Origin: an uncultured Oscillospiraceae bacterium
Lineage (GTDB): Bacteria; Bacillota; Clostridia; Oscillospirales; Oscillospiraceae
Assembly: GCA_944385535.1 (NCBI GenBank)
Contig: CALWXR010000028.1
Location: 1 to 39,308, forward strand
Length of the DNA: 39,308 nt
Direction of reading: 5' to 3'
The translations under genes and the position numbers were made by a program. Below the pieces are notes generated by a model. It saw only the letters and a program-made list of their open reading frames with translations, was not told the DNA's origin and ran no database searches. This document shows, one piece after another, positions 207 to 15,513 of the stretch (positions within the stretch are counted from its first letter, which is position 1; every line of letters begins with the position of its first letter).

Positions 207-1466
207 TCAGACTTCAACAAAAGCACTGCCACCAATAAACAGCGTGGGCACGCTGCCAACGTCAATTGCCGGCTTAAAAAAAGGAACACCGGCATAAGGC
301 AGAATCAAAACATCCTTCGGTCCCTCTCCAATGGCGGCAACAATTTCGCTCCAGCGGTTGCTCCAGCGGAATCTGGGGTCCTTGGCATCATAGTGATACT
401 GCTGTGCAGTACCCCGATCCAGGTGCTCGGAAAAAGCGAAGTATCTTCCCACCCGTTCCGGAACAGCGGAGTCTCCATAATATGCCAGTCCACCAATCCC
501 GCTGTCTCCCCATTTACCAAACAGATAATGGGTAGCTGCTCCCATAGGAGAGTTGGCTGCAACAATCAAATCTCCGCCGGGCTTTATAAGCTCAAAAAAC
601 TCAGGATAGTTCAACACCACATTTGCTTCCGAGGGTTTGAAATAGTTGTTGGCGATCACAACATCCGCAGGTTCCGGACAATCCGCACTGAAGAAATCAA
701 AAATATCTTCAAAATTCTTTTCCAGATTTTCTCGGCAGCTTCCCGCATAAAGCTGTGCGATCTCACCGGCACCATTTAACAGTGCGTCAAACTTTACATT
801 CAGGTTGAGCAACTCAGATGCCTCTACGGTTATCCTCCGGGCGTCCAAATTCTGATTCCACTTCTCCCGGGGAGTCAAGTGGTATCTTCGAATCGTCTCA
901 CTGGAGGCAATTCCCGGAACGATCAGTTTTCCACCCCCTGCAACACCTGTGTTTGGATGGCCGAACAAAGATCCAATACCAATTTTAAAGTCGGCATTTA
1001 CACACTCGGCGTTCAGTTCAATGGGCATACCGTTGAAACAAATGCCTACCATGACATTATTGAAGAAGGGATTATGGCTGTATGTAGCAAAATTGCTGAC
1101 GATCTCTTCTCCAAGCTTACGGACAAAGTCCTCTCTGGCCATGGCGCGATGCATACCCGTTGCACCCACAAATCGGATTTTATTCTCCGGAATTCCCGCC
1201 TTCACCAATTCCTCGATAATGATCCCAGCCAACTGGCCGCAAGGCGTAGGCCGTGTCGTATCATCAATAATAATGACAGCATCCCGGCATCCTTTGGCTT
1301 TGCCTGCGATATCCGTTCCATAGACAACTGAACACAGCTGCTGCTGCGTCATCTTAGGCGCAACAGCCCCCTTATATGAGCAGACACGAACATTCCAGCC
1401 ATCCGGCAGATCTATGATCACAGGTTCATTTCCATATAAACTGTTTGCTGGTAATGGAAACTGCAT
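207..1466 (-). CDS. LarA-family nickel-pincer racemase/epimerase homolog (LarA-1)
   Basis: A 419-residue protein of the lactate racemase LarA (DUF2088) family, close to the usual length of about 420. Enzymes of this family invert the C2 stereocentre of 2-hydroxyacids using the nickel-pincer nucleotide. The sequence shows DDTTRPTP at 68-75 (R72), GMHRAM with H106, H170 in FGHPNTG, K180 in GGGK and H196. These match R75, H108, H174, K184 (cofactor-linked) and H200 (nickel ligand) of Lactiplantibacillus LarA in order and spacing, so an active holoenzyme is likely. The start has a good AAAGGAG site. It is the last gene of the cluster, 27 bp after the UxaA-type large subunit. Known family members include malate racemase and gluconate 2-epimerase, so lactate should not be assumed. 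No larB, larC or larE cofactor genes are in the window. Family confidence is high; the substrate is unknown. Confidence 0.9.
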   Translation of the reverse strand: MQFPLPANSLYGNEPVIIDLPDGWNVRVCSYKGAVAPKMTQQQLCSVVYGTDIAGKAKGCRDAVIIIDDTTRPTPCGQLAGIIIEELVKAGIPENKIRFVGATGMHRAMAREDFVRKLGEEIVSNFATYSHNPFFNNVMVGICFNGMPIELNAECVNADFKIGIGSLFGHPNTGVAGGGKLIVPGIASSETIRRYHLTPREKWNQNLDARRITVEASELLNLNVKFDALLNGAGEIAQLYAGSCRENLEKNFEDIFDFFSADCPEPADVVIANNYFKPSEANVVLNYPEFFELIKPGGDLIVAANSPMGAATHYLFGKWGDSGIGGLAYYGDSAVPERVGRYFAFSEHLDRGTAQQYHYDAKDPRFRWSNRWSEIVAAIGEGPKDVLILPYAGVPFFKPAIDVGSVPTLFIGGSAFVEV

Positions 1467-1493
1467 ACGCTTCTCCTTTCTCTGTTATCCCAT

Positions 1494-2717
1494 CTAATAA
1501 TAAAGATGATCAATCACGTTTTCTGCTGCCTGATTGTTAAAAGAAAGTGAGACAAAGGACGCACCATGCCGCTCTGCACACGTTTCTTTTCCATTGATCA
1601 CACAGACCACTTGTTCAAGCAGCTGCTGCAACTCACATGCCTGCACGCCATCTGTTCCGATTCTCACCGATGCATCAAAATCCAAATCGTCATTCATGTG
1701 GACAAAAGTGCGGGCATTTCCTGTAATTTTGAAGGTTGGGCTTACCGGTGTTCCGCCGGTATGTCCACGCCCGGTGGTCAAGAAAACCATCTGGCATCCG
1801 GCACTGATCAAGTTCATCATGGACGAAGCGTCTCCGCCGCGAAACACATCTGCAGAAGGAACAAAATCCGGAAGTTCATCTAAAATCCACATGCCCCTAC
1901 CCGGAATGGTTTGTCCCAGCTTCAGCACGCCCTGTATGGGTGTGCTTCCGGATTTTACAAGGGCACCGGCGCTTTTTTCTTCGATTGTGGAAAGACCGCC
2001 TTTGAAATTGCCGTGGGAAATGGAAAAGCGTTCCGTTGCTTTGCAGAAATTGATCATTTTATCGTAGGTCATTGCCAAATCCCTTGCCACGTTACTGTCG
2101 GCCGCCCGTCTGACAATCGTGTCCCGCTGGCCTACCATTTCCGTAATTTCTCCAACCACGCCAGCTCCACCAAAGAAAATCACCTGATCGATAAATTCTC
2201 CCATCAGAGGGTTGGCTGCAATCAGTGACGTGTAATCCGATGCGCCGCATTCTATTCCAAAGCACAAATCGGCAAAAGAAATGTCCGTCTTTTGCAGCTT
2301 GTTCAGCTTTTCCAAAAGCTTCATTGCCAGCGCCACACCGACCTGCACACTTTTTGCCGTTCCGCCGCAGCTTTGTACATCCATGATTTCGGCATATCTG
2401 CCAGCTTCCACGGCAATTTCGTAAAGACGCTTACCGTCTGCTTCCTCGCAACCCATGCCAATCACAAGGACAGCACCCACATTGGGGTGGGTCACAAAGG
2501 ATGCCAGCTGCCGGTATATGACCTCATTTGCCGCACAGGCTTCATTGCCAATGCAATCGATATCCCCCAATTGAGCCAGCTGCTGTGCCACTTTGTGGCA
2601 CACAGAACGGCTGCACTCCACGGTATATAGAATCAGAAGCTTGTTGCGAATGCCCGGTCTTCCGGTTTTTCGGGCATATCCTTGCAATTTCGGCATGGCA
2701 ATATCATGGATTGTCAT
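1494..2717 (-). CDS. UxaA/GarD-type hydro-lyase, large (catalytic) subunit
   Basis: A protein of about 407 residues matching the C-terminal catalytic domain of altronate/galactarate dehydratase (UxaA/GarD). It opens with a typical GYARKTGRPGIRN segment and has Gly/Cys-rich blocks such as IGNEACA, MGCEEADG, QSCGGT, GIECGASD and TTGRGHTGG. The family removes water (or sulfite, in SuyB) from 2,3-dihydroxy acids in an iron-dependent reaction. I start at 2717 (MTIHDI), which has a GGGAGGG site, rather than at the upstream frame opening at 2843. It overlaps the SAF-domain gene by 14 bp, so the two are translationally coupled and together equal one full UxaA (about 500 residues). The split arrangement is like sulfolactate sulfo-lyase SuyAB, but the surrounding genes point to a sugar acid or hydroxyacid. 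The exact substrate cannot be read from the sequence. Confidence 0.87.
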   Translation of the reverse strand: MTIHDIAMPKLQGYARKTGRPGIRNKLLILYTVECSRSVCHKVAQQLAQLGDIDCIGNEACAANEVIYRQLASFVTHPNVGAVLVIGMGCEEADGKRLYEIAVEAGRYAEIMDVQSCGGTAKSVQVGVALAMKLLEKLNKLQKTDISFADLCFGIECGASDYTSLIAANPLMGEFIDQVIFFGGAGVVGEITEMVGQRDTIVRRAADSNVARDLAMTYDKMINFCKATERFSISHGNFKGGLSTIEEKSAGALVKSGSTPIQGVLKLGQTIPGRGMWILDELPDFVPSADVFRGGDASSMMNLISAGCQMVFLTTGRGHTGGTPVSPTFKITGNARTFVHMNDDLDFDASVRIGTDGVQACELQQLLEQVVCVINGKETCAERHGASFVSLSFNNQAAENVIDHLYY

Positions 2718-3009
2718 AGCGATGCCCTCCCGTATCCGTAAAACTGCAAAGATTATGAATGTGCACATGTTCTCCCGGCAGAATATCCCTACAGGCAACA
2801 CCGATGGCAAAGCCGCCTTTGACAATGGCTTCACCGGATACAATTTGTTTTACGGAAATTTTATGGCCTTCCGAAATCGTATCCCGGCAGCACAGCTTCC
2901 TGTCATCGTAACCGCATAAGACAGCATAGTCTCCCTGTTGCATCTGCCCCAGCGCTACAGCAACATTATCTTCTGGGGCTATCACATATCCGTAAATGTT
3001 CTGTTCCAT
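2704..3009 (-). CDS. SAF-domain small subunit of UxaA-type hydro-lyase
   Basis: About 101 residues forming a SAF (UxaA N-terminal/SuyA-like) domain: a short beta-rich fold that includes VIAPEDNVAVAL, EGHKISVKQI and LPGEHVHIHNLCS. In UxaA this domain caps the active site and helps bind the substrate; here it is a separate gene. The chosen start (MEQNIYG, 3009) has AGGAAGGTGG upstream. The frame stays open to 3075, but that extension is Arg/Lys-rich and unlike the family. The stop overlaps the start of the large subunit by 14 bp. The gene lies 106 bp after the 2-hydroxyacid dehydrogenase gene. The C-terminal HIHNLCSF resembles the UxaA segment that connects the domain to the catalytic half. Confidence 0.85.
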   Translation of the reverse strand: MEQNIYGYVIAPEDNVAVALGQMQQGDYAVLCGYDDRKLCCRDTISEGHKISVKQIVSGEAIVKGGFAIGVACRDILPGEHVHIHNLCSFTDTGGHRYDNP

Positions 3010-3115: not shown

Positions 3116-4087
3116 TCATATTTTCCGATAGCCGGTATTTATATCAACAACATTCTTCAATGGGCGTGCATGTAAATAGTTTTCAATATTTTCCAGACAT
3201 ATACTCCAGATCCGATGCTGGGACGGGCTGTCCGGCGAAAAGTCATTGCCCGAAACATGGGGTGTCAACAACAAACGTTCCTGCGACCAGAAGGGGTGAT
3301 CTTCCGGTAACGGCTCCACTGCAGCAACATCCAAGCCCACGCCAAACAAGTGTCCCTGCTGCATAATCTCCGTAAGATCTGCTTCCACAATCAAAGTGCC
3401 GCGGCCCACATTGACCAAAACCGCGTCCTTTTTCATCAGTCTCAGCCGCCGTCCATCCAAAAGGCCACGGGTCTGGGGGGTATCGGGAAGGCATGCAACC
3501 ACAATGTCCGCCTGGGGCAGAAGTGCATCCAGCTGGAAGAAATCCTCAATTTCGTCGTACATCGGTGGCACAGCCCGCTTTACACGGCGGATTCCGATGA
3601 TGCGTTTCACAAGAGGACGCATCCGCTTGGCCAGTTCGGTTCCAATATCCCCCGCACCGAGAATCAGCACAGTTGCATCCTCCAGGGATTTGCTGTAATG
3701 GATATGCTCCCACGTGCCAGATTGCTGCAAGCGCGCATATTGGGGAAAATGACGGCACAACGTCAATACCATACCCAGGGCATACTCTGCAATCACCGGT
3801 CCATAGCCGCCGGTCATGTTGCATAGAACCGCACCCTCCGAAAAACACGGACAGCCTACAAACTGGCTAACTCCCGCCCACGTTGTTTGCATCAGCTTGA
3901 GGTTTTTGCAATACAGCAGATCTTCCGCCTCCGGATCGCCCAGCAAAATGGTGGCCCGTGCCATCTGGTCAGGATATTCCACGTCCTCCCGCTGTACAAA
4001 GGCAATGCTGCACCGGTCTTTTGCCATATGTACAAGGCGGGCTTTCTCTTCTTCCGGAAAAGGAATCAGGCAAACCAGGTGTTCCAT
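3116..4087 (-). CDS. D-isomer-specific 2-hydroxyacid dehydrogenase
   Basis: A 323-residue NAD(P)-dependent dehydrogenase of the D-2-hydroxyacid family (glyoxylate/hydroxypyruvate reductase and phosphoglycerate dehydrogenase relatives). It interconverts a 2-keto acid and a D-2-hydroxy acid in the cytoplasm. It has the Rossmann GAGDIG at 144-149 and the catalytic triad R229 (NVGRG), E258 (VEPLPEDHPFW) and H277 (TPHVSG). Length is normal for the family. The start at 4087 has AAGGAG. It sits between the DUF1667 gene and the SAF gene. In this setting it could reduce or oxidise the keto acid produced or consumed by the LarA and FAD enzymes, which makes stereochemical interconversion a theme of the cluster. 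The precise keto acid is not evident. Confidence 0.9.
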   Translation of the reverse strand: MEHLVCLIPFPEEEKARLVHMAKDRCSIAFVQREDVEYPDQMARATILLGDPEAEDLLYCKNLKLMQTTWAGVSQFVGCPCFSEGAVLCNMTGGYGPVIAEYALGMVLTLCRHFPQYARLQQSGTWEHIHYSKSLEDATVLILGAGDIGTELAKRMRPLVKRIIGIRRVKRAVPPMYDEIEDFFQLDALLPQADIVVACLPDTPQTRGLLDGRRLRLMKKDAVLVNVGRGTLIVEADLTEIMQQGHLFGVGLDVAAVEPLPEDHPFWSQERLLLTPHVSGNDFSPDSPSQHRIWSICLENIENYLHARPLKNVVDINTGYRKI

Positions 4088-4118: not shown

Positions 4119-4490
4119 TTACTCCACCGCTTCCATATTCTTTGTAACGATCACATCACTGTCCAGTCCACAAACATTTTCGATCACAATTTGTCCGATC
4201 TTGACCGGTGCCCGCAGAGTAATTCCATCAATTTGTTCCATCACACGGAAGATATCCTTTTTGGGGATTGGCCGGTCCAGCCGCACGCTACACAAGGGCA
4301 GTGCCGCACCTTCAATGCGCACAGTCGAAGCAATGGTCCTTCTGGGATCCAGCACTTCCTGACGAACGTACTCCTCGCCCCGGGGACAAGTATGGCCTTT
4401 CACCTCAACCACAACACCGTCTTCCAGAACTGTGGTGATATTGCAGCCGTTGGGACAAATAATACACGTAAAAACACGTTCAGATCTCAT
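4119..4490 (-). CDS. DUF1667 cysteine-rich protein (partner of FAD oxidoreductases)
   Basis: A 123-residue DUF1667 protein with C9, C12 and C16 in CIICPNGC plus C35 in HTCPRGEEY. This four-cysteine pattern fits a small metal or iron-sulfur site. In many Firmicutes the family is encoded with a GlpA-like FAD dehydrogenase and a second FAD/NAD-binding protein, usually near glpK. Here all three are together but no glycerol kinase is seen. The start overlaps the end of the FAD/NAD-binding gene by 11 bp. It probably serves as an electron-transfer or assembly component of that complex, which is an inference from gene order. No catalytic role can be assigned from the sequence. Confidence 0.85.
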   Translation of the reverse strand: MRSERVFTCIICPNGCNITTVLEDGVVVEVKGHTCPRGEEYVRQEVLDPRRTIASTVRIEGAALPLCSVRLDRPIPKKDIFRVMEQIDGITLRAPVKIGQIVIENVCGLDSDVIVTKNMEAVE

Positions 4491-5718
4491 TTACAGACAC
4501 CTCGATTCTCTCACCGGATACAATGGCATCCGCCTTGACCGTAAACTGAATCATCTCTGCCGGAATTGCTTTGGGAAGCGTAACGCGCCGCAGCACCGTA
4601 TCGCCTTGCTTTACAATCACGCGGCAGCGGCCCATGGGCTTTCGTACACGCATGGATAACTGGAAATCCTGGGTTCCGCTGATGTGCTGGGGAATGATAT
4701 GTCCCAGCTGTGCAGAGGCAACCAACTCAATATCGCACGCAGGAAGTGTGCCTTCCTTCAGGTAACGGACTGCACCGTTGGCCAGCGCTTCTGCCTCCAA
4801 GGATACAAAGTCCACCAAATCATGTACGTGCAGTACATTGCCTGCCGCAAAGATACCCGGTACGGAGGTCTGGCAGAACTCATCCACATAAGCACCCTTC
4901 GTCCGATTGTCCAGTTCCACTCCCGCAGCAATAGACAGCTCGTTTTCCGGAATCAGACCCACAGACAGAACCAGCGTATCGCAGGAAAATTCCTTTTCTG
5001 TACCGGCAATCGGCTGCATGCGCTCGTCCACTTCCACCACCGTAACACCGGTAATCCGCTCAGTACCGTGGATCTTCACGACGCTGTGGCGCAGGTATAG
5101 AGGAATGCCGTAATCGTTCAGGCACTGCTCAATATTTCTGGGCAGACCGCTGGGGTACGGAAGAACCTCGAAAACCGCTTTGACTTTCGCTCCCTCCAGG
5201 GTCATACGCCGGGCCATAATCATACCAATATCACCGGAACCCATAATGATAACCTCCCGGCCAACCATGGTGTTGAAAAGATTGATGTAGCTCTGTGCAA
5301 CACCGGCATTATAGATTCCGGAAGGACGTGTTCCGGGAATGGCCAATGCACCGCGGGTTCGCTCCCGGCATCCCATGGCAAGAATCACTGCCCGCGCCTG
5401 GATCTGACGCAGTCCGTCCCGGGTGGCTATTGTAACGATTTTCTCCTCAGACAGGTCGATAACCGTAGCATTGGTCAGGGTTTCAATTTGCATTTGTTCT
5501 GCTTCATCTATGAAACGCTGGGAATATTCCGGGCCGCTGAGTGTCTGCCCAAAGCGCTTCAGTCCAAAGCCATCGTGAATACACTGCCGAAGAATACCGC
5601 CGAGCTGTTTTTCACGCTCTACAATAAGAATATCCGTAATGCCCTGATTCCTCAGCGCAACTGCTGCGGCCAATCCTGCAGGTCCTCCACCAATGATAAC
5701 AACATCTCTTTTTTCCAT
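4480..5718 (-). CDS. FAD/NAD(P)-binding pyridine nucleotide-disulfide oxidoreductase family protein
   Basis: A 412-residue flavoprotein with an N-terminal dinucleotide-binding GGGPAGLAAA (10-19), a mid-protein GCRERTRG segment and a second nucleotide-binding region with IIMGSGDIGMIMARRM, followed by the FAD-closing motif FAAGNVLHVHD. It resembles the HcnB/OoxA-like subunit that accompanies GlpA/LhgO-type dehydrogenases and would pass electrons from the FAD/iron-sulfur partner to NAD(P) or another acceptor. It starts 1 bp after the stop of the FAD-dependent oxidoreductase gene (ribosome site AAGGTG) and overlaps DUF1667 by 11 bp, so the three form one translational unit. No redox-active CxxC of the thioredoxin-reductase kind is evident. 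Confidence 0.87.
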   Translation of the reverse strand: MEKRDVVIIGGGPAGLAAAVALRNQGITDILIVEREKQLGGILRQCIHDGFGLKRFGQTLSGPEYSQRFIDEAEQMQIETLTNATVIDLSEEKIVTIATRDGLRQIQARAVILAMGCRERTRGALAIPGTRPSGIYNAGVAQSYINLFNTMVGREVIIMGSGDIGMIMARRMTLEGAKVKAVFEVLPYPSGLPRNIEQCLNDYGIPLYLRHSVVKIHGTERITGVTVVEVDERMQPIAGTEKEFSCDTLVLSVGLIPENELSIAAGVELDNRTKGAYVDEFCQTSVPGIFAAGNVLHVHDLVDFVSLEAEALANGAVRYLKEGTLPACDIELVASAQLGHIIPQHISGTQDFQLSMRVRKPMGRCRVIVKQGDTVLRRVTLPKAIPAEMIQFTVKADAIVSGERIEVSVNEI

Positions 5719-5719
5719 C

Positions 5720-7174
5720 TTATTTCACCTTCCCTGTAAACAAGTAGGCACCGTTTTTGTTTAATAAGATATCTTCTTTTCTCATGTCCGCCTCATCCTG
5801 CAGGATCGCTGCGATACGGGTTTCGCAGTAACCGCCCTGGCAGCGTCCCATGGTTGCCCGCGTGCGGTATTTAATACCGCTAACAGTACGAACACCCAAA
5901 ATATTGTGCACCGCCTGCTTGATTTCTGCCTTTGTTACGCACTCACACCGGCAGAAAATCTCACCGTAGTCTGGATCGCTTTGAATCAATCGATTCTGCT
6001 CCTGCACACTCTGCTCTGCAAAGCGAGTGATTCCCTTGCGAACAGGATTAAAGTTTACATTCTCCTGCAGGCTCTCCTGCTCCAGAACCAGCTTGACAAC
6101 CCGGCGCGCAATGGGCAGGGCACTGGTAAGACCGGGGGAGTTGATTCCCACAAGGTTCACTGCATGGGGAATCTCCTTGCTGGCTTCAATGACAAAATCT
6201 GTGTCCTTCCCGGTTGCAGGATCGGTAACTGTTGGGAACACACCGGCATAATTTCGAATAAAATAATCTCTTTTCACGTAAGCGAACATTTTTTCTCCGC
6301 TTTCACTCAGGATTTTAATCATATCCTGTGTAACATCATAACTGATGTTTTGCTGAATGTTCTCAATCGTCGGACCAACCAGCACATTGCCGTCTATGGT
6401 CGGCGTCACGTGTACGTCAAACTCACCTACTTCATTGGGTGTGGGATATACGGGCATGGATAGGAATTTTCCTGTCTTTTTATCCAGAATCTCGTACTGT
6501 CCCTTGACCCGGTTGGGTATGTAGGCTGCAAACCCCAGCATAGCCGAAATCTTATATGCATACAGACCCGCACAGTTTATCACCCAGCGGGCACAAACCG
6601 GTTTTTGGCTGGTCTTCAGGATAAATTCGCCCTCCGGATTGCGGCTGATGTCCAACACCTCATGGTCAAACAGATATTGGACACCGTTTTGTGCGGCATT
6701 TTCCGCCAGTGCAATGGTGTAGGTGAAGGGACACAGTATGCCTGCCGTGGGAACATAAAGGGCAAAGTTGCCGCTGGCATTGGGTTCCATGGCCTTGAGG
6801 GTATCCCGATCAATCATTCGAAGCCCCTCAACCCCGTTGCGAACGCCGTTTTCCAGCAAAGCCTCCAGGCGAAGTCGCTCTTCTTCGCTAAAACCCACAA
6901 TCAGCTTGCCGCAGCGGCGAAAAGGAACATCCAACTCTTTGGCAACCTGATCAAATTCCGCGTTGCCTTCCATGCTACACTGTGTACGCATCAAGCCCTT
7001 TTTATACAAAATGCCCGAATGAAGCAGTCCCGTATTGTGGCCACTCGTTCCGTTGCACACGTCCAATTCACGTTCAAGGACACAAATACTCAACTGAAAA
7101 CGGGACAGTTCTCTGGCAACCGCACTGCCAACAACACCGCCACCAATGACAGCTACATCATACTTCTTCATCAT
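5720..7174 (-). CDS. FAD-dependent 2-hydroxyacid/glycerol-3-phosphate dehydrogenase-like protein with BFD-type [2Fe-2S] domain
   Basis: A 484-residue DAO-fold flavoprotein. The N-terminus has GGGVVGSAVARELS (11-24), followed by ERE and SGHNTGLLHSGILY, as in L-2-hydroxyglutarate dehydrogenase LhgO and GlpA. The C-terminal part (roughly 410-455) has a CRCE...GRCQGGYC arrangement typical of BFD-like [2Fe-2S] domains. It would oxidise a 2-hydroxy acid or polyol phosphate and send electrons to the neighbouring FAD and DUF1667 proteins. The ATG at 7174 overlaps the end of the upstream LarA gene by 4 bp (ATGA), which ties racemisation to oxidation. A glycerol-3-phosphate role is possible but is not supported by the neighbours. 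Family confidence is high; the substrate is open. Confidence 0.87.
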   Translation of the reverse strand: MMKKYDVAVIGGGVVGSAVARELSRFQLSICVLERELDVCNGTSGHNTGLLHSGILYKKGLMRTQCSMEGNAEFDQVAKELDVPFRRCGKLIVGFSEEERLRLEALLENGVRNGVEGLRMIDRDTLKAMEPNASGNFALYVPTAGILCPFTYTIALAENAAQNGVQYLFDHEVLDISRNPEGEFILKTSQKPVCARWVINCAGLYAYKISAMLGFAAYIPNRVKGQYEILDKKTGKFLSMPVYPTPNEVGEFDVHVTPTIDGNVLVGPTIENIQQNISYDVTQDMIKILSESGEKMFAYVKRDYFIRNYAGVFPTVTDPATGKDTDFVIEASKEIPHAVNLVGINSPGLTSALPIARRVVKLVLEQESLQENVNFNPVRKGITRFAEQSVQEQNRLIQSDPDYGEIFCRCECVTKAEIKQAVHNILGVRTVSGIKYRTRATMGRCQGGYCETRIAAILQDEADMRKEDILLNKNGAYLFTGKVK

Positions 7175-8448
7175 AGCGCCTCTCCTTCATTCTGCGGCAT
7201 TGCACCGATCTGGATTGCGCCCATGGGGTAAATGGCTACCAGAGGACGCTCCTTGTTCTTGTATTTTTCCTCAAGTTGTGCAAGCACAGCCAGCCAATCA
7301 TCGTACAAGGCCGGTATTTCACCGGTGTAGAACTGCCGGATATCAATTCCACGCACACCTTCTGTGTAAACCATGGTCTGTACACCATGCAGTTCCAGCG
7401 GGGGCATATTGTCGTCGTGGGGAGAAAACAGCCGCATTCCGGGACCAAAAAGTGCATGGAAACCAGCACCCTCACTGGCTGCTGTCACGGCAACAATCGT
7501 ACCGTCGCGGCGCACACATTTTTCCTTGTAATGACCCAGGACGGCAAAACAGGTTCCAACCTGGGAATACTCCGTATCCTTGGGATAGGCAGAAAGCACC
7601 ACAATATCTGCATTGGGCACAAGCTCGGTGTGCAGGCTCTGCATTGCACATTTGCAGGCTTCCCGGTGTGCCTTCACGAAATGTCCGGCAAACAGATCGG
7701 CAACCTGCATCTTGCTGTTAAGAACGACATTTACAATAAAGTCCAAACCAACTTTCCCAACAATCTGCTCCATGTTCTGGCGCATGGGATTATCCGGATC
7801 GCAGGTGCTGGTCTTAAACGCTTTGCTTTCACTTTGATTTGCATAGACCAATGTGTGGTTGCTCTGCAAGGTTTCTATACCGCCAATACCGGGAATGACC
7901 GCTTTCGCGCCACCGGAAAAACCGGCCAATGTGTGGGGAACAATGCATCCCACAGCAATACGCAGATCAGCATCCATGTAGTTTTTGTTGATCTTAATGA
8001 CCTGATCATCATCCGGTACTGTAACCAAATCCGCTGCGAAGGGAAAATGGTTCAGCACCTGAACATGCTCCAGAACCCAGCTGCCCACTTTTTTCTGCAT
8101 TTCCTGCTTGGTCATGGGGCGGTGACCACCCAAAGCAACAACCACCTTAATATGAGAATAGTCGATGCCGCAGGCAACAAGCTTTTTAATGACAATGGGC
8201 AACAAGAGGTCACCCGGCGTAGGTCTGGAAATATCATCGATTATGATACACGCACTTTTCTTTTCCCGGGCAAGGACCTCCAAAGGCTCTGTACCAATTG
8301 GTTCATCCATCTTGATCATAATTTCTTCCAGGGTCAGTTCTGGACGTTCGGGCATAGCCTGGTAACGGATGTCCCATTTATCCGGGAAAACGAGTGTCCG
8401 CTCAGACTGCTCATACCACTGGCCCCAGGGAATTTTCACTTTCTGCAT
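7171..8448 (-). CDS. LarA-family nickel-pincer racemase/epimerase homolog (LarA-2)
   Basis: A 425-residue second LarA homolog, clearly different from the one at 207-1466. It has DDISRPTP at 71-78 (R75), GGHRPMT with H109, H172 in VPHTLAG, K182 in SGGAK and H198. All catalytic and cofactor-binding positions of LarA are therefore present, with K182 to H198 spaced 16 residues as in the model enzyme. The start has AGAGGAAG. It overlaps the FAD dehydrogenase gene by 4 bp, suggesting stoichiometric expression and a substrate relationship. Two LarA paralogs in one operon suggest either two stereocentres or substrates to invert, or a heteromeric pair; the sequence does not say which. The cofactor must be made by lar genes elsewhere in the genome. 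Confidence 0.92.
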   Translation of the reverse strand: MQKVKIPWGQWYEQSERTLVFPDKWDIRYQAMPERPELTLEEIMIKMDEPIGTEPLEVLAREKKSACIIIDDISRPTPGDLLLPIVIKKLVACGIDYSHIKVVVALGGHRPMTKQEMQKKVGSWVLEHVQVLNHFPFAADLVTVPDDDQVIKINKNYMDADLRIAVGCIVPHTLAGFSGGAKAVIPGIGGIETLQSNHTLVYANQSESKAFKTSTCDPDNPMRQNMEQIVGKVGLDFIVNVVLNSKMQVADLFAGHFVKAHREACKCAMQSLHTELVPNADIVVLSAYPKDTEYSQVGTCFAVLGHYKEKCVRRDGTIVAVTAASEGAGFHALFGPGMRLFSPHDDNMPPLELHGVQTMVYTEGVRGIDIRQFYTGEIPALYDDWLAVLAQLEEKYKNKERPLVAIYPMGAIQIGAMPQNEGEAL

Positions 8449-8607: not shown

Positions 8608-8611
8608 ATTC

Positions 8612-9694
8612 TTACAGATCCACCGGTCTTCCAATTTGTGCAGAGTGGTACAGTGCCTCTGTGATCTTCGTCACAACAGCCGCCTGCCGGGCGTTGCCCA
8701 GAGAAGGATCCTGTGCCTTCACAGCCTCAATAAAGGATGCAGCTTCTCTGTCGTTGGCCGAATTGACGTTGTTGCCGGGAGCCAGGGCCTGGCTGGATTC
8801 TGCTGCCACCGAGGGCTTGATCTCAACCAACGAGCCGTTCATTTCACGGACAATGGTTAAGCCGTTACGCATCTCCGCACCTGCTTTGCTGCCATACAAC
8901 GATACACAGGCCGTGCGCTCGTCAGTGGTGTGCATAGCCCAGGCAGTTTCAATGGAAATGGTCATTCCATTTTCCATGCGAACAAAGCCGAATGCACTGT
9001 CCTCGATATCGTATTCCTCGTTCGGCCAGGGACCCCAACGGTTGCAGTCACTGCCCAATCTACCGATATGATTATATGCAGCGCCTACAACATAGGCCGG
9101 TTTATAGTTATTTGTGAGCCACAGCGCCAAATCCAGCACGTGAGAACCTAGGTCAATTAAAGGTCCGCCACCCTGAATATCTTTATTTAGGAAGGCGCCC
9201 CAATTGGGAATACCCATTCTCCTAACCGTGTATGCTTTGACGTAGTACATATCGCCAAAGAAGCCCTCGTCACCCAAAGACTTCACCATCATATAGTCGT
9301 CTCTGAAACGGTTTTGGAACCCTATGCTCAGAACCTTCCCCGCCTTTTCCGCGGCATTGAGCATATTGACTGCTTCACCATAAGACAGAGCCATGGGTTT
9401 TTCACACATGACGTGCTTGTTATGGTTCAGCGCAGCAATCGTCAGCTCAGAATGTGTGCTGTTTGGTGTGCATACATAAACAGCGTCAATCCTGCTGTCA
9501 TTCAAAACCTGCGTCAGAGTATCAGCCACATAGGAGCGTGCATTACCAAACTGGGCACATGCCGATTGGGAATTTCGAGGATTGTTATCATAAAAAGCAC
9601 AAACGTCAACATCCTCACGCCGCAAAAGGGCCGGTAATATTTTTCTTTGGGCGATTGAACCACAGCCAATTATGGCAACATGAACACGATCCAT
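8612..9694 (-). CDS. Gfo/Idh/MocA-family oxidoreductase
   Basis: A 360-residue NAD(P)-dependent oxidoreductase with Rossmann GCGSIAQ (10-16), the family signature CEKPMAL (K99 is the usual catalytic lysine) and a downstream DLGSHVLDLALW segment carrying the conserved Asp/His region. Members oxidise or reduce a hydroxyl of sugars, inositols or sugar derivatives. Length is typical. The start has a strong GGAGG. It lies 37 bp after the second VOC gene and is followed by a stem-loop. Together with the ribose-type ABC importer it suggests that a sugar-like or polyol-like compound enters the pathway. The particular sugar and oxidised carbon cannot be told. Confidence 0.9.
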   Translation of the reverse strand: MDRVHVAIIGCGSIAQRKILPALLRREDVDVCAFYDNNPRNSQSACAQFGNARSYVADTLTQVLNDSRIDAVYVCTPNSTHSELTIAALNHNKHVMCEKPMALSYGEAVNMLNAAEKAGKVLSIGFQNRFRDDYMMVKSLGDEGFFGDMYYVKAYTVRRMGIPNWGAFLNKDIQGGGPLIDLGSHVLDLALWLTNNYKPAYVVGAAYNHIGRLGSDCNRWGPWPNEEYDIEDSAFGFVRMENGMTISIETAWAMHTTDERTACVSLYGSKAGAEMRNGLTIVREMNGSLVEIKPSVAAESSQALAPGNNVNSANDREAASFIEAVKAQDPSLGNARQAAVVTKITEALYHSAQIGRPVDL

Positions 9695-9731: not shown

Positions 9732-10208
9732 TTACAAATACTGTGCCAGTTCAACAATGTTTCCTTCCGGATCCTTGATGCCAAAGGAAATCTTTTTGTC
9801 GTAATCTGCCTCAAGGCTACTGACATCACCGGTAAATACGGTATCAAAGCTTGTCCCGTTTTTTACATACAGGGTCTGACCCTTGTCAAGAAGCTCTTTG
9901 GCAGCCTCTGCCAGGTCTTCCACGGTGATGGTCAAACAGCTGTAACTGAAATCGCCCGGGTTTTCCAGCTTCTCGTATTTCTCATCAAACAACTCCACAA
10001 ACATGTTCGGTGCGATCTTAAAATACTTGATCCACTCATCGCCCACGTTCTTGATGCCCACCTGCTTTGTACGAATCAAGCTTGCTTCGTTATGCTGCAG
10101 GGTGAACAGTTCCTGAAGGCCCAGAGTGTCTCTGTAGAAACTGACCATTTCCTGGAAACAATTTGTCTTAAACGCACAGTGCGGCAATGCTAAAATATGT
10201 TCGTTCAT
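9732..10208 (-). CDS. VOC (glyoxalase/dioxygenase fold) protein 2
   Basis: About 158 residues with two beta-alpha-beta-beta-beta halves. Candidate metal ligands are H in LPHCAFK, E in MFVELFDE and E in DPEGNIVELAQ; the usual second-half first-strand ligand is replaced by SCLTI. VOC enzymes include lyases, isomerases and epimerases acting on 2-keto or hydroxy acids. I prefer the ATG at 10208 (MNEHIL), preceded by GGAGGGTGAGGAA, over the one at 10223, which lies on the ribosome site itself. It follows VOC protein 1 by 14 bp. The two are paralogous only at fold level. The reaction is unknown. Confidence 0.8.
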   Translation of the reverse strand: MNEHILALPHCAFKTNCFQEMVSFYRDTLGLQELFTLQHNEASLIRTKQVGIKNVGDEWIKYFKIAPNMFVELFDEKYEKLENPGDFSYSCLTITVEDLAEAAKELLDKGQTLYVKNGTSFDTVFTGDVSSLEADYDKKISFGIKDPEGNIVELAQYL

Positions 10209-10222
10209 TTCCTCACCCTCCA

Positions 10223-10672
10223 TTACAGCAGCTGTTTACTATCCATTGTGTACATCTGCAATTCGATATCATTTCCATCCGGATCCTTAATAAAGGAATT
10301 GAAGCAGCCGCACACACCTTTACGCAGAACATCGGGATCCTCAATGGGATACCCCTTTGCTGTTCTGGAATTGTACACGGTTGTTCCCCGACGAATAATA
10401 TCCCGGTTTCCTTCCAAATAATCATCAAGCTGGAAGCACATATGAATGAAGGAACGATTCATCTCATTGCGCTCGGAAGGATATTCACCCCGGCACAAAT
10501 GCAAGATCTGACCGTTGGCAAAGCATACATCTGTTGCAACAACATTTCCTTCGCCATCCACAATATCACGCTTTTTGTCCAAACCGACTTTATTGACGTA
10601 AAAATCCACAGTTTCTTCAAAATGTTTGCAAATCAGAGTAACCTGACTTAAAGCCTTGTACTTAATTGCCAT
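10223..10672 (-). CDS. VOC (glyoxalase/dioxygenase fold) protein 1
   Basis: A 149-residue VOC-fold protein. Candidate metal ligands are Q in LSQVTLI, H in SFIHMCFQ and E in DPDGNDIELQ, so a divalent metal site looks intact. Such proteins commonly act as isomerases, epimerases or lyases on small oxygenated acids. It overlaps the end of the ABC permease gene by 11 bp, with GGAGGAG inside that gene. Its place directly after the importer suggests it acts early on the imported compound. No particular reaction can be assigned. Confidence 0.82.
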   Translation of the reverse strand: MAIKYKALSQVTLICKHFEETVDFYVNKVGLDKKRDIVDGEGNVVATDVCFANGQILHLCRGEYPSERNEMNRSFIHMCFQLDDYLEGNRDIIRRGTTVYNSRTAKGYPIEDPDVLRKGVCGCFNSFIKDPDGNDIELQMYTMDSKQLL

Positions 10673-11669
10673 TTTTCTCCTCCTTATGCTGCTGCTCTAC
10701 CTTGTTGCGAATACTGATTTTTTCATATGCACGCGTGGTGGTGGCATCCAGGATCACGGCAAACAGAATGATCACACCCTTTGCCACAATCTGCCAGTTT
10801 GCATCGACGCGGAGCAAATTCAAGCCATTGCTTACAATTCCCACAACCAGACAGCCGATCAGTGAACCCCAAACATTGGCGTTGCCGCCTTTCATGCTGG
10901 TACCGCCGATAACTGCGGCTGCAATAACATCCATAGACAAGTCCTGGCCGGCACTCAGCTGGGCAGAAGCACTGCGTGCTGTCTGAACAACAGATGCAAG
11001 GGCAGCACAAGCACCCAAAACACCATAGGAAACAATACGGACGCGATTGATGTTAATGCCGCAGGCTCTGGCTGCTTCCGCATTACCACCCATAGCCAGA
11101 GCATGTCTGCCATAGGACGTGAAGCTGAGCAGGAAGCTGATGATGATAATTGTGCCGATCATGATAAAAACGGGAATGGGGATGATACCAACATAGCCCT
11201 GGCCAATCTCCACAAATTCGCTGGGCAGGTTGCTTACGGGAACGTTGCCGGTAAGTACGTATCCAAGGCCCTTAAAAATGTACTGGGAACCTAGGGTTAC
11301 AATGAACGGAGGCAAAGAGAAAACCGTTATCAGCACACCATTGAACATTCCACACACGGCACCCAGCAGAAGGCCAATGGCGATTGCGATGGGTATCGCT
11401 ACCTCATTGCAAATCAACTGGGCTACTACAACGCCGGTAAGCATCAGGATCATACCAACAGAAAGATCCATGTGTCCGGAACCCAGCAAAAGCGTATAGC
11501 CTGCACAGGCAATCGTTGTGACACACACCTGTCTAATGACATTGAGCAGGTTTGCCTGTGTTAAGAAGATAGGAGATAGGCAAGTCAAAATGATAATCAA
11601 TATGGCTAAAATAAAATACGATTTATTACCTAATAAAATATCATCCTTAAAGTTAATTCTTTTTTTCAT
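10662..11669 (-). CDS. Ribose-type sugar ABC transporter permease
   Basis: A permease of about 335 residues of the RbsC/BPD_transp_2 family with repeated hydrophobic helices and the family segments LLGSGHMDLSVG, YGRHALAMGGNAEAARACGIN and AAVIGGTSMKGG. It forms the membrane channel of the importer with the double ATPase upstream. I start at 11669 (MKKRIN) with AGGAG seven bases upstream; the frame opens earlier at 11702 but that overlaps the ATPase end. Substrates of this class are monosaccharides, autoinducers or sugar derivatives. The downstream enzymes suggest an acidic sugar derivative here. Confidence 0.92.
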   Translation of the reverse strand: MKKRINFKDDILLGNKSYFILAILIIILTCLSPIFLTQANLLNVIRQVCVTTIACAGYTLLLGSGHMDLSVGMILMLTGVVVAQLICNEVAIPIAIAIGLLLGAVCGMFNGVLITVFSLPPFIVTLGSQYIFKGLGYVLTGNVPVSNLPSEFVEIGQGYVGIIPIPVFIMIGTIIIISFLLSFTSYGRHALAMGGNAEAARACGININRVRIVSYGVLGACAALASVVQTARSASAQLSAGQDLSMDVIAAAVIGGTSMKGGNANVWGSLIGCLVVGIVSNGLNLLRVDANWQIVAKGVIILFAVILDATTTRAYEKISIRNKVEQQHKEEKNGN

Positions 11670-11682
11670 TTTCAAACTCCTA

Positions 11683-13179
11683 TTATTTGCGACCGAACGC
11701 ATATTCCATCAACAGTTCCTGCGTAGCATCTGCTCTGTCACAAACATGAACGATGCTGCCTTCACGGACCACAGCAATTCTGTCACTCATTCCGAGAATC
11801 TCCGGCAGTTCCGAGGAAACCAGAATAATCGCGACACCCTGCTGTGCAAGTTTGCTTATGAGCAAATGAATGTCGGATTTACTGCCCACGTCAATGCCGC
11901 GGGTTGGCTCATCAATGATAAGAACTTTCGGCTTTGTAAGCAGCCAGCGCAGCAGCAATACTTTTTGTTGGTTGCCGCCGCTCAGCTGGGCAATTCTTTC
12001 TTTTGGCGAAGAGTATTTTACGCTAATGGCAGAGGAAATCTCGTTAAAGGCCTTCTTTTCACTGGACTTGCGGTACAAACCAAGCTTGTTGCATAGCCTT
12101 GTGAAGTATGCAAGGGTTGTATTTGCCATGACAGATAGCTGATAAATACATCCCGTACGCAATCTGTCTTCGGTCAGCATGCCAATACCATATTTAATCG
12201 CATCAGAAGGAGCCGTGATCTTAACGGTTTTGCCGTTAATCACAATTTCTCCAGATGTCAGTTTATCCAATCCAAAAACTGTCCGCATGATTTCGCTGCG
12301 TCCAGATCCGATCAAACCGGAGAATCCCAGGATTTCACCTGCCCGGACCTCAAACGATACATCGCGGAAAACACCGGTGCTGGTAAGGTTTTTCACTTCC
12401 AAAACAGGTTCCTTAATCTCGGCTTCCAGTTTGGGGAAACGGGCTGTCAGCTGCCGTCCCACCATATAACCGATCAGCTGCTTGTCATCAATCTCGGAGC
12501 AATTTCTTGTTACAACATACTCGCCATCGCGTAACACAGTAACGCGATCGCAGATTTCAAATATCTCCTCCAACTTGTGGCTGATAAACACGATGGACGT
12601 ACCATTTTGTGTTAAAGACTTAATAATCTTAAACAGCAGGTTGATTTCAACATTTGTCAAGGAAGATGTTGGCTCATCCATAATAATAATTTCAGAATTC
12701 AGGGAGATCGCCCTGGCCAACTCAACCAACTGCATATTTGCAATACTTAGCTTGTTTACGAGGGTTTGCGGAGATAATTGTATCCCCAAACGATCCAGCA
12801 AATCGACCGTGGCTTTATTGCGCGCTTTAACGCTCAATATTCCTCCTTTCTTAAATTTTTGTTCCTGACCAAGCCATATGTTTTCGGAAACACTCATAGT
12901 CGGGACCAGACTGATTTCCTGATGAATCATGGAAATGCCGGCAGTGATTGCTTCAGCAGGTGACTTGGGCATGATTTCCTTTCCGCCAATGGTGATAGAA
13001 CCCTCATCAGCAGAATAAATGCCCAGTAAAACCTTCATCAATGTGGATTTTCCCGCGCCATTCTCACCGATCAAGGCATGAACTTCACCTTTTCTGACTT
13101 CGAAATGCACCCCTTTGAGGGCAATCGTTCCCGGAAAGGCTTTTGTAATATTCTCCATTTTCAAAGCGATGTCTTGCAT
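11683..13179 (-). CDS. Ribose-type sugar ABC transporter, double ATPase
   Basis: A 498-residue fused ATPase of the RbsA/MglA/XylG type with two ABC domains. The first has Walker A GENGAGKS (38-45), a degenerate signature LSIANMQ and Walker B IIMDEPTS. The second has the characteristic altered Walker A GLIGSGRSE (around residue 285), signature LSGGNQQK and Walker B LIIDEPTRGID. This asymmetry is normal for the family. The start is preceded by AGGAG. The gene lies 13 bp before the permease and 118 bp after the lipoprotein gene, with a stem-loop in that gap. Confidence 0.94.
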   Translation of the reverse strand: MQDIALKMENITKAFPGTIALKGVHFEVRKGEVHALIGENGAGKSTLMKVLLGIYSADEGSITIGGKEIMPKSPAEAITAGISMIHQEISLVPTMSVSENIWLGQEQKFKKGGILSVKARNKATVDLLDRLGIQLSPQTLVNKLSIANMQLVELARAISLNSEIIIMDEPTSSLTNVEINLLFKIIKSLTQNGTSIVFISHKLEEIFEICDRVTVLRDGEYVVTRNCSEIDDKQLIGYMVGRQLTARFPKLEAEIKEPVLEVKNLTSTGVFRDVSFEVRAGEILGFSGLIGSGRSEIMRTVFGLDKLTSGEIVINGKTVKITAPSDAIKYGIGMLTEDRLRTGCIYQLSVMANTTLAYFTRLCNKLGLYRKSSEKKAFNEISSAISVKYSSPKERIAQLSGGNQQKVLLLRWLLTKPKVLIIDEPTRGIDVGSKSDIHLLISKLAQQGVAIILVSSELPEILGMSDRIAVVREGSIVHVCDRADATQELLMEYAFGRK

Positions 13180-13219: not shown

Positions 13220-13264
13220 TTGGGCGTTGTGCAAAAAATGCAATATTTTATGCACAACGCCCAA
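13220..13264 (-). other. Perfect 14-bp-arm stem-loop between lipoprotein and ATPase genes
   Basis: The arms TTGGGCGTTGTGCA (13220-13233) and its exact complement (13251-13264) enclose a 17-base AT-rich loop. On the minus strand the stem is followed by CGGTTAGTTTTAT, not a clean T-run. It lies between the substrate-binding-protein gene and the ATPase gene, where such stems often protect the upstream message or cause partial termination, so more binding protein is made than ATPase. That role is inference. Confidence 0.7.
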
Positions 13265-13297
13265 ACTTAATCGACCATGGAAGACAATAACTTAGTA

Positions 13298-14344
13298 TCA
13301 GTCAGCGTCTTTCATTTCCGCTACATTGTCAGCGGTAACAACAGCAACACACTTCTTACCTGCATTGTAGACGTTTTCGGAATATTCACCTTCCAGCATC
13401 ATCAGAGCCAGATTAACCATTTCTTCGCCACGCTTCATCATCAGAGACTTGATATCGATCTGAATCCAGCCTTCTTCAACCAGCTGCATACCAATCTTGG
13501 TGCCATCAACAGAAGAAATGAAGATATCACCAGGGTTGTAACCGGCTGCCTTCAGTGCATTGACAGCACCCAGGGACATATCGTCGGAAGCGGAGCAGAT
13601 GCAGTTCAGCTCGTCACCATACAGCTGCAGCCAGTCTTCCACCAGCTTCTGAGCCATGTCGGTGCTCCAGTCAGCATAGTTTTCATCCAGAATCTTAACT
13701 CTGTCAGGATACTTCTCGGCCAGCTCCTTAATTGCGATGTGACGGGCAAGCTGGACAGTCTGGCTGGCACGGCCGTAAATCAGAACGGCATTCAGAACCA
13801 GATCGGGGTCCTTGTTCAGCTGCTCTTCATACCAGCTTGCGATCATAGCAGAGCTTGCGGGCTCGTCAGTACCCTGGAAGAAGCAGTCAATGTACTGTGT
13901 GTCGATACCGTTCTTCTCAATGCACAGAATGCCTGCATCACGGATGACCTGTGCAGCGGGAATGGAACCGGAGGTGTCAACTGCAGACAGGATGATGGCA
14001 TCGGGCTTCTGAAGGACCATGGTTTCCACGTCGGACAGCTGCTTTTCAACAGAACCCTGGCCGTCACTGAAGATAATTTCAACTTCAATGTCGTCTCTTG
14101 CTGCGTTAATATCTTCAGCTGCCTTCTGCAGGCCCTTGAGATTACGGTTCATGTTCTCGTCCATGGTGTTCATTGCAAAGCCAATGACGATCTTCCGGGG
14201 TTCATTTTCAGGAGTATCATCGTTACTTGCAGGAGCATCATTTGCGGGAACATCTGCGGCGGGAGGATCTTCCTGCGCGCTGCCACATGCAGCCAAAGCA
14301 AAAATCATCAAAGCCGCCAAGAGGATTGCAATAAATCTTTTCAT
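13298..14344 (-). CDS. Ribose-type ABC transporter substrate-binding lipoprotein
   Basis: A 348-residue periplasmic-binding-protein-like lipoprotein (Peripla_BP_4, RbsB-like). It has a lysine/arginine start, a hydrophobic stretch and the lipobox LAAC with the lipidated cysteine at 20, then an Asp/Glu/Pro/Asn-rich linker to about residue 50. The mature domain begins RKIVIGFAMNTMDENM and contains DAIILSAVDTSG and SSVDGTKIGMQLVEEG, typical of sugar binders. It would capture the substrate outside the membrane for the downstream ATPase and permease. The start has AAAAGGAGT. A candidate regulatory motif lies about 90 bp upstream. Confidence 0.93.
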   Translation of the reverse strand: MKRFIAILLAALMIFALAACGSAQEDPPAADVPANDAPASNDDTPENEPRKIVIGFAMNTMDENMNRNLKGLQKAAEDINAARDDIEVEIIFSDGQGSVEKQLSDVETMVLQKPDAIILSAVDTSGSIPAAQVIRDAGILCIEKNGIDTQYIDCFFQGTDEPASSAMIASWYEEQLNKDPDLVLNAVLIYGRASQTVQLARHIAIKELAEKYPDRVKILDENYADWSTDMAQKLVEDWLQLYGDELNCICSASDDMSLGAVNALKAAGYNPGDIFISSVDGTKIGMQLVEEGWIQIDIKSLMMKRGEEMVNLALMMLEGEYSENVYNAGKKCVAVVTADNVAEMKDAD

Positions 14345-14430
14345 GATAGTTTACTCCTTTTCTTGATTGTTTTATTTGGAAAGTTCAGTCATGTATAGTT
14401 GCTTTCTGTACATCCGACAGAAAAATCAAT

Positions 14431-14449
14431 CACCAAACCCGCTTTTGTG
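14431..14449. promoter_or_regulatory. Candidate operator upstream of the ABC lipoprotein gene (motif copy 1)
   Basis: CACCAAACCCGCTTTTGTG is an imperfect palindrome (CAC.AAA...TTT.GTG when read on the other strand). Its first 12 bases recur exactly at 15781-15792 in front of iclR, followed by a similar TTTGTG end. A looser third copy (AAAACCCGCTTTT) occurs at 14511-14523. The 251-bp gap 14345-14595 otherwise shows no gene and no convincing -10/-35 pair. The binding protein is presumed to be the adjacent IclR regulator. Confidence 0.5.
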
Positions 14450-14595
14450 AGATAGCCTGTCAAATCACTTTAAAAAGCATCAACACTTATAAACTTTTTC
14501 CTTTTTGGTTAAAACCCGCTTTTTATAGAAAACATATATGATTTAGGAAGAAAATGAAAAAGACTGCAACGGTGATTATCAAGATCCGCCGGTGA

Positions 14596-15513
14596 TCAAT
14601 CCAGATAACCGTAAAATCTCAGGGTCTCCTTCAGACGGTTCATCGTCTCTTCAGGCAGCTCGGACAGAACAGGCTTACGGCAGTAGCCAGCGTCAACACC
14701 ACGCAGCTTCAGGCCTTCCTTGATGATCTGCAGCCACAGTACATCGCCGTTGGAATCGGCCTCGGAGAACAGATGCAGATAAGGACGAATCTTGTCGGTA
14801 TGTGCCTGCATTGCCTCTTCAACCTTCTTGGCCTTTGCCAGGTTGTAAACCTCGCTGTTCTCCTTGGGGAACAGGTTGCCGGTACCGCAAACCCAGCCGT
14901 CAGTCCAGCAGCTCAAGGTCTCAACGGGACATACATCGTAACCGTAGAAAATACCGAAGTTATCGTCCGTCAGGTGGCGCAGATTCTGCTGACGGTATAC
15001 GTCTGCCTGACGCTCCTTAACAGCATCCACGCAGCCTTCGTTGTAAAGCTTTGCCATGAACTTGTCGCTCAGCAGGCAAGTGGAATAATAGGGGTTGTGA
15101 TAGAGCATGACAGGGATATCGATTGCATCATGCAGGGTCTTATAGTGGACGTACAGTTCCTTTTCATTTGGTGCCATGTACCAAGGAGTAACTGTCATGA
15201 CGCCGTCGGCTCCATGAGACTGTGCAGCCTGGGACATCTTAACCACATCACTGGTACGATATGCGCCGGTAGAAGCGACGACTTTAATGCCATTGTCGTG
15301 GCCTGCTTCAATGTAGGCCTTGTTGACTGCAATCTGCTCTTCTACAGTCAGTGCAATAATCTCACCAGTGCTGCCAGAGGGGATAATGCCGGTCACGCCA
15401 TTTTCGGCCAAAAACTTTGCGATTTCCTTAATTGCGCTAAAGTTGATGGACTCGTCCTTGTTAAATGGGGTAATAACAGGAATATAAATGCCGCTCAGTT
15501 TTTCTCGTGCCAT
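14596..15513 (-). CDS. DapA/NanA-family class I aldolase or dehydratase
   Basis: A 305-residue (beta/alpha)8 Schiff-base enzyme of the dihydrodipicolinate synthase/N-acetylneuraminate lyase family. It has GSTGE (47-51), the catalytic tyrosine Y138 in YHNP and the Schiff-base lysine K166 in DAVKERQ, spaced as Y133 and K161 of E. coli DapA. The arginine that binds the carboxylate in true DHDPS (R138, in NVPSRT) is replaced by Y143 here. It is therefore probably not lysine biosynthetic, but a keto-acid aldolase or a keto-deoxy-acid dehydratase yielding pyruvate or a related product. The start has AAAAGGAG. The gene is divergent from iclR and heads the cluster, with its own promoter and a palindromic operator. 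Confidence 0.9.
   Translation of the reverse strand: MAREKLSGIYIPVITPFNKDESINFSAIKEIAKFLAENGVTGIIPSGSTGEIIALTVEEQIAVNKAYIEAGHDNGIKVVASTGAYRTSDVVKMSQAAQSHGADGVMTVTPWYMAPNEKELYVHYKTLHDAIDIPVMLYHNPYYSTCLLSDKFMAKLYNEGCVDAVKERQADVYRQQNLRHLTDDNFGIFYGYDVCPVETLSCWTDGWVCGTGNLFPKENSEVYNLAKAKKVEEAMQAHTDKIRPYLHLFSEADSNGDVLWLQIIKEGLKLRGVDAGYCRKPVLSELPEETMNRLKETLRFYGYLD

Follow-up and report, generated by a model that had tools for sequence, protein, structure and literature searches.

The 39,308-base stretch analysed here (the window) is the whole of contig C28 in a 2.85 Mb genome (99% complete, 2.3% contaminated) of an uncultured Oscillospiraceae bacterium. It carries an operon in which LarA1, a nickel-pincer epimerase homologue of the LarA superfamily, is encoded directly before a flavoprotein trio (FADa, FADb and a DUF1667 protein) whose first member resembles L-2-hydroxyglutarate dehydrogenase (L2HGDH). 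LarA1, the trio and a DapA-family enzyme were found together at all five loci with a LarA1 orthologue, the window included. We give about an even chance to the reading that this core serves the catabolism of an imported 2-hydroxy monocarboxylic acid of sugar-like kind; the acid would be inverted by LarA1, oxidised by FADa, FADb and DUF1667 and split by DapA. What is new here is that LarA-type epimerases are repeatedly paired with a flavoprotein trio of L2HGDH-like type.

Conserved core of the operon

A contig scan with LarA1, which used six short patterns and thus gives a lower bound, returned at least two loci: L078 from Oscillospiraceae bacterium RGIG4239 of roe deer colon (76% identity) and L079 from Ruminococcus turbiniformis (71%). 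We also searched genomes for LarA1 and FADa; all such counts refer to samples of genomes, not to all species. At E ≤ 1e-60, LarA1 was matched in 1 of 394 genomes of the window's order (its own; the next best match reached 38% identity and 6.7e-56), in 3 of 397 genomes of the R. turbiniformis family (R. turbiniformis, G729 and G832) and in 1 of 341 genomes of its class (R. turbiniformis itself).

In the four other genomes the LarA1 orthologues are 68–76% identical to that of the window. DapA orthologues (73–85%) are present at all four of these loci, two of them as incomplete genes, and FADb orthologues are 71–79% identical. The gene for an IclR-family regulator was detected at four of the five core loci; its orthologues (61–63%) adjoin DapA at three of the four other loci, the fourth being cut by a contig end (the L078 contig begins inside DapA). 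At four of the five loci DapA and LarA1 are separated by a sugar ATP-binding cassette (ABC) importer. It is of CUT2 type in the window, of CUT1 type in L078 and L079 and, named by eye, of CUT1 type in L089, where the binding-protein gene lies in two overlapping frames. The fifth locus (L091 in G832, 7599–14606) holds a broken core: DapA and LarA1 are both cut short and lie next to one another, the importer is lost, and FADb is parted from DUF1667 by a transposase gene that was named by eye as IS110-like.

In the window, 15 minus-strand genes run from 15513 to 207 with intergenic gaps of -20 to 251 bp, the LarA1 and FADa genes overlapping by 4 bp. The IclR gene diverges from this run and starts at 15880. 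Pfam matches bore out the gene families that a sequence-only reading of the window had named for these 15 genes, apart from the N-terminal UxaA part. The latter has no Pfam match and was recognised by a weak match (E 1.4e-5) covering residues 5–76 of galactarate dehydratase. Since the window is a whole contig and the LarA2 gene ends 206 bp from its edge, the operon may extend further. After the regulator, the genes are listed in operon order:

15880..16767, plus strand: IclR-family regulator, divergent (PF01614/PF09339)
14596..15513, minus strand: DapA-family (Schiff-base lyase) enzyme, core (PF00701, E 5.9e-53)
13298..14344, minus strand: CUT2 sugar-binding lipoprotein (PF13407; the nearest PDB entries are sugar-binding proteins)
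11683..13179, minus strand: CUT2 ATPase (two PF00005 matches)
10662..11702, minus strand: CUT2 permease (PF02653)
10223..10672, minus strand: VOC protein 1 (PF00903, E 7e-9; weakly YaeR glyoxalase-like)
9732..10223, minus strand: VOC protein 2 (PF00903, E 4e-7)
8612..9694, minus strand: Gfo/Idh/MocA dehydrogenase (MocA), close to DgpA (best PDB matches DgpA1 and DgpA)
7171..8448, minus strand: LarA1, nickel-pincer epimerase homologue, core (PF09861, E 2e-48)
5720..7174, minus strand: FADa, L2HGDH-like flavoprotein with a BFD [2Fe-2S] domain, core (DAO and Fer2_BFD; active-site residues)
4480..5718, minus strand: FADb, pyridine-nucleotide-type flavoprotein, core (PF07992, Pyr_redox_2)
4119..4490, minus strand: DUF1667 protein, core (PF07892)
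3116..4087, minus strand: D-2-hydroxyacid dehydrogenase (2-Hacid_dh), accessory (PF02826)
2704..3009, minus strand: UxaA/GarD N-terminal (SAF-like) part (weak galactarate dehydratase match)
1494..2717, minus strand: UxaA/GarD large part, GD_AH (PF20629, 6.5e-60; PF04295, 1.7e-26)
207..1466, minus strand: LarA2, second nickel-pincer homologue (PF09861, E 1.7e-35)

Two inverted repeats lie just 3' of the IclR gene, at 16793–16820 (12 pairs, listed as terminator-like on both strands) and at 16915–16953 (17 pairs).

The accessory genes, scored at tblastn E ≤ 1e-4, are distributed unevenly. MocA occurs at two of the five core loci (the window and, as a 42% homologue, L079), as does the D-2-hydroxyacid dehydrogenase (the window and, as a 52% homologue, L091). 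The UxaA pair, LarA2 and the VOC genes were detected in the window alone. An AEC-type permease lies 3' of the core in L079 and, judged by sequence, 3' of the dehydrogenase in L091. The expectation that the genes stay together as a full set did not hold: none of the fetched loci contains all 15, and only IclR, DapA, the sugar ABC importer, LarA1, FADa, FADb and DUF1667 recur over the four other genomes. Nor are the two LarA types found together throughout, a point that the sequence-only reading had put up as a check: the four other core genomes hold no LarA2 orthologue (best 31% identity). The cofactor genes larB, larC and larE, by contrast, turned up as the sequence-only reading required. In the window's own genome larE, larB and larC lie side by side on contig C68, and LarC was found in all five core genomes with LarB and LarE beside it, LarE being aligned in two pieces in one of them.

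The operon has a G+C content of 48.7% versus 54.3% for the rest of the contig, and the four other same-genus genomes listed lack a LarA1 orthologue (one carries a 36% LarA). Together, these two observations suggest that the operon was gained by transfer.

Active site of FADa and related trios

In Drosophila L2HGDH, Ser88, Tyr289 and His302 are described as holding the C1-carboxylate of the substrate, His92 as the base and Arg393 as holding the C5-carboxylate (PMC10726252). The first four positions were mapped onto FADa from a phmmer alignment to the Drosophila enzyme; this alignment stopped short of Arg393, which was placed via alignments to 3dme and to glycerophosphate oxidase. We aligned 24 FADa sequences, comprising the five of the core, 15 with about 44–54% identity to that of the window and four with about 40–43%. 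Left out were L120, L123 and L127, for which a wrong frame had been chosen, and L126, in which FADa lies inside a longer fused frame.

The His92 equivalent is kept in all 24 sequences, and the position of Ser88 is Thr in FADa. Equivalents of Tyr289 and His302 are present in 20 of the 20 core and 44–54% sequences; the four remaining ones, which are of glycerol-3-phosphate type and in three cases lie near glpK, have Phe and Leu there. At the position of Arg393, all five core sequences have Phe, the 15 relatives Arg (12) or Leu (3), and the four glycerol-3-phosphate-type sequences Arg. Because of this Phe, the tail of the substrate is probably uncharged. We infer that FADa oxidises the C2-hydroxyl of a 2-hydroxy acid that has no acid group at its far end. 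FADa, like L2HGDH a DAO-type flavoprotein, may therefore work as that enzyme does. Although the Tyr289 and His302 equivalents are in place, we do not class it as an L2HGDH because Arg393 is replaced; it further differs from the enzyme of PMC10726252 by its BFD [2Fe-2S] domain and by being encoded with FADb and DUF1667.

The trio might instead be an anaerobic glycerol-3-phosphate dehydrogenase whose link to LarA is accidental. In NCBIfam, FADa scores best against type 2 glycerol-3-phosphate oxidase (NF033460; 239 bits, short of the cut-off of 460), and in the PDB against a glycerophosphate oxidase. The glpK-linked trios of L130–L132, which we take to be GlpA/GlpB-like proteins plus DUF1667, have the same three-gene architecture but another active-site signature. 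However, FADa lacks the glycerol-3-phosphate-type signature and the anion-binding Arg, the operon's families include no glpK-like gene, and LarA neighbours of three kinds recur. The active-site residues in particular make such a role unlikely, and we regard this explanation as very improbable. The window's genome holds no second DUF1667 match.

At E ≤ 1e-100, FADa was matched in 99 of 397 genomes, and 23 listed places besides the core were taken for a study of neighbourhoods, several of L109–L125 being cut by contig ends. A LarA-superfamily gene adjoins the trio at three of the 17 loci with a 44–54% FADa (L109–L125). Two of these LarA proteins (L112 and L113) fall into NCBIfam group 22 with 525 and 536 bits against a cut-off of 400, and the third (L121) into group 18, 'putative hexonate epimerase', with 538 bits against 500. 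The six loci with an approximately 40–43% FADa (L126–L128 and L130–L132) gave no match to four LarA queries at tblastn E ≤ 1e-8. L112 (1720–10189) combines a DapA 26% like that of the window with the group 22 LarA and the FAD trio; that is, the same three functions are drawn from different branches. Next to these genes lie two others that were named by eye, one for an aldo/keto reductase and one for a PrpR-like regulator. Genes of sugar-acid metabolism also lie near related trios: UxuA in L117 and L120, a fructuronate-reductase-like gene in L117 as well, and full-length UxaA in L113 and L115.

LarA1 and LarA2

The window's two LarA proteins score 164.7 and 122.5 bits for the Lar_N domain against a cut-off of 23.3. 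Their own genome encodes no other Lar_N protein above this cut-off; a third, weaker match was identified by eye as a DUF362-like ferredoxin protein. In the numbering of the Lactobacillus plantarum enzyme, LarA binds its nickel-pincer nucleotide through R75, K184 and H200 and uses D72, H108, H174 and K298 for catalysis (PMC7583248). Both proteins had been credited with every cofactor and catalytic residue. Six of the seven are indeed present in both; the exception is K298, which is Thr in LarA1 and absent from LarA2. Thr occupies this position in all four full-length LarA1 orthologues (window included). None of the four members of the LarA2 clade has an aligned Lys there, and the clade carries its own N-x-x-x-K-x-x-E-A motif shortly upstream.

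PMC7583248 describes K298 as catalytic in LarA, Mar2 and GntE2 and as missing from some groups of unassigned specificity, and suggests that groups without H174 or K298 may be unable to invert a stereocentre. A substitute for K298 in LarA1, K308, was considered and judged unlikely from an AlphaFold2 model (mean pLDDT 83.6), in which Q296 and K308 are twelve residues apart on one helix (294–311), compared with three in LarA.

With the Lar_N domain, the six residues and LarBCE in the genome, LarA1 and LarA2 belong, by sequence, to the LarA superfamily (PMC7583248, PMC11770544, PMC12611868). They do not belong to a characterised racemase group because the K298 equivalent is missing. Among the named NCBIfam LarA families that were matched (LarAH5, 6, 10, 14–16, 18 and lactate racemase), no cut-off was reached, the best score being 249 bits against 500. 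The two proteins are 26% identical to each other. In a tree each clade has a support of 1.0, and the two clades join (0.93) to the exclusion of the lactate- and malate-racemase-like sequences included. The D-gluconate 2-epimerases GntE and group 18, LarA relatives tied to sugar acids in PMC7583248, have E-V/S in the loop after H174, where LarA1 has T-L and LarA2 P-N. Leaving aside the supplementary gene-context table of PMC7583248, we found no superfamily member tied to this flavoprotein trio in the three papers.

The three nearest relatives of LarA2 (33–39% identity, L035–L037) came from a search of 150 genomes of one family. Their genes lie within about 6 kb of subunits of a 2-oxoacid:ferredoxin oxidoreductase, and each has a CoA-transferase or acyl-CoA synthetase gene within about 9 kb; these loci may mark an uncharacterised 2-hydroxy acid fermentation. 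The neighbouring oxidoreductases point to LarA2 acting on another acid than the core. It is thus possible, although we think it somewhat unlikely, that LarA2 and the D-2-hydroxyacid dehydrogenase form an unrelated pair for a 2-hydroxy acid and its 2-oxo acid, placed downstream by chance. The absence of any UxaA match at L035–L037 agrees with this, but just three relatives are available, and gaps of 27–106 bp in the window suggest co-transcription.

Neither these loci nor those of the 33–37% LarA1 relatives (L068–L077, many on short contigs) contain such an operon. Apart from LarA, the window's proteins were matched there only sporadically and weakly, by a partial ABC ATPase, by D-2-hydroxyacid dehydrogenases and by one 22% MocA. 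Plasmid records yielded nothing beyond LarA matches, all below 35% identity.

Proposed pathway and its alternatives

In the pathway that we propose, LarA1, equipped with the nickel-pincer cofactor made by LarBCE, would invert the configuration at C2. FADa would take the hydride from the C2-hydroxyl of one epimer to give the 2-oxo acid, and the electrons would pass from its [2Fe-2S] domain to FADb and DUF1667 and presumably on to NAD+. The DapA-family enzyme would then bind the 2-oxo acid as a Schiff base and split it into an aldehyde and pyruvate or a related compound. The three would stay together because all would act on one carbon, C2. The importer type, MocA, the VOC proteins, the D-2-hydroxyacid dehydrogenase and LarA2 with UxaA would be interchangeable add-ons that bring other feeds in or dispose of products. 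The same logic underlies the hydroxyproline pathway, in which a 2-epimerase, an FAD-dependent D-hydroxyproline dehydrogenase and a DapA-family deaminase provide C2 inversion, flavoprotein oxidation at C2 and a DapA-family step. There the chemistry is that of an amino acid, whereas nickel-pincer hydroxy-acid chemistry is proposed here.

All five core DapA proteins have the motif (V/I)KERQ, whose Lys we take to be the Schiff-base-forming, catalytic Lys of the family. The window's DapA stays below every NCBIfam equivalog cut-off listed, dihydrodipicolinate synthase (TIGR00674) giving 174.7 against 206.15 bits. DapA-family aldolases usually cleave 2-oxo-3-deoxy acids. As the core contains no dehydratase, either the substrate would already be 3-deoxy or DapA would catalyse another reaction. 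The latter could be a dehydration or a cleavage that yields hydroxypyruvate, for which the accessory dehydrogenase could serve as reductase.

The sequence-only reading had proposed that a sugar acid is epimerised, dehydrated and split, with no role for the flavoprotein trio. Inversion at C2 and splitting by DapA both find support, though by inference. The central dehydration does not, since the UxaA pair is present at one of the five core loci (the window) versus the trio, with the active site of a 2-hydroxyacid dehydrogenase, at all five. On that route an aldonate or aldarate, once epimerised at C2 by LarA, would lose water through the split UxaA to give the 2-oxo-3-deoxy acid that DapA splits, and the flavoproteins would be secondary. 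It is favoured by the shared operon of the UxaA pair, LarA2 and DapA in the window and by the full-length UxaA genes near two related trios. Yet UxaA and LarA2 were not detected at the other core loci, LarA2 has no orthologue elsewhere in those genomes (UxaA was not sought genome-wide there), and the conserved trio is left without a task. We therefore consider this route unlikely for the core; it may hold as a side branch in this organism, at most an add-on, with LarA2 and UxaA as a possible second entrance to the same 2-oxo-3-deoxy acid. The large UxaA part has the GD_AH second and C domains but scores 134 bits for the galactarate equivalog, whose cut-off is 731. At E ≤ 1e-60 it was matched in 2 of 295 genomes of the order, the window's own and G301 (44%), and in G301 (L129) a 33% UxaA N-terminal part adjoins the large part.

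A further explanation is that the operon serves a glycoside: the DgpA-like MocA would oxidise C3 of a glucoside, the VOC proteins would open it, and the remaining enzymes would degrade the freed acid. MocA matches DgpA over its full length (PDB E-values 1.2e-84 for DgpA1 and 1.1e-83 for DgpA), and DgpA-type enzymes are reported to oxidise C- and O-glucosides at C3 (PMC11239390). However, MocA occurs at only two core loci and is just 42% alike in the other one, and no xylose-isomerase-like (DgpC-type) domain is among the operon's Pfam matches, the only part of the genome searched for it. This explanation has a slim chance of being right. As MocA stands outside the core, it is more informative on the compounds that this organism channels in than on the core reaction. 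The two VOC proteins are 22% identical to each other.

Several observations weigh against the pathway of inversion, oxidation and splitting. The core genomes may all go back to a single recent origin, so that the count of five out of five is less telling than it appears, and in L091 both DapA and LarA1 are broken. LarA1 lacks the equivalent of K298, a residue catalytic according to PMC7583248. The single best family match of FADa, below its cut-off, is a glycerol-3-phosphate oxidase. A LarA neighbour was seen at just 3 of the 17 loci with a 44–54% FADa, so the trio often works without LarA. Sugar-acid neighbours alone are weak evidence, because the glycerol-3-phosphate-type locus L131 likewise has UxuA and a fructuronate-reductase-like gene nearby. 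Finally, the core has no dehydratase, while cleavage by DapA usually wants a 3-deoxy 2-oxo acid.

A small chance remains, in our estimate, that the core specifically degrades 3-deoxyaldonic acids, for example metasaccharinic acids. These form in heated sugar from 3-deoxyglucosone (PMC13280894) and would be expected to occur as mixtures of C2 epimers. In this version LarA1 would interconvert the epimers, FADa would oxidise one of them directly to 2-keto-3-deoxygluconate without a dehydratase, and DapA would split the latter to pyruvate and glyceraldehyde. The window's two glyoxalase-type VOC proteins might form the acids from the dicarbonyl. More broadly, anaerobes would have, in the combination of a nickel-pincer epimerase with an L2HGDH-like trio, a modular means of oxidising either epimer of a 2-hydroxy acid.

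What LarA homologues do in vivo is named as an important remaining question in PMC7583248. That a LarA homologue is repeatedly encoded just ahead of a flavoprotein whose 2-hydroxyacid active site can be read would narrow the substrate class (monocarboxylic, with an uncharged tail), and the neighbourhood of LarA1 and FADa offers a coupled assay. The proposed core pathway further predicts that a LarA homologue without the K298 Lys is an active epimerase, contrary to the suspicion voiced in PMC7583248. In the open-access literature, the supplementary gene-context table of that paper aside, we found no description of this gene set, nothing joining lactate racemase with a DapA-family enzyme, altronate dehydratase and gene-cluster context, and nothing on Ruminococcus turbiniformis.

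Elsewhere in the window, a 600-residue open frame (33685–35487) has no Pfam match at 1e-10, and transketolase is encoded as two separate halves, the C and N parts, at 21310–23098.

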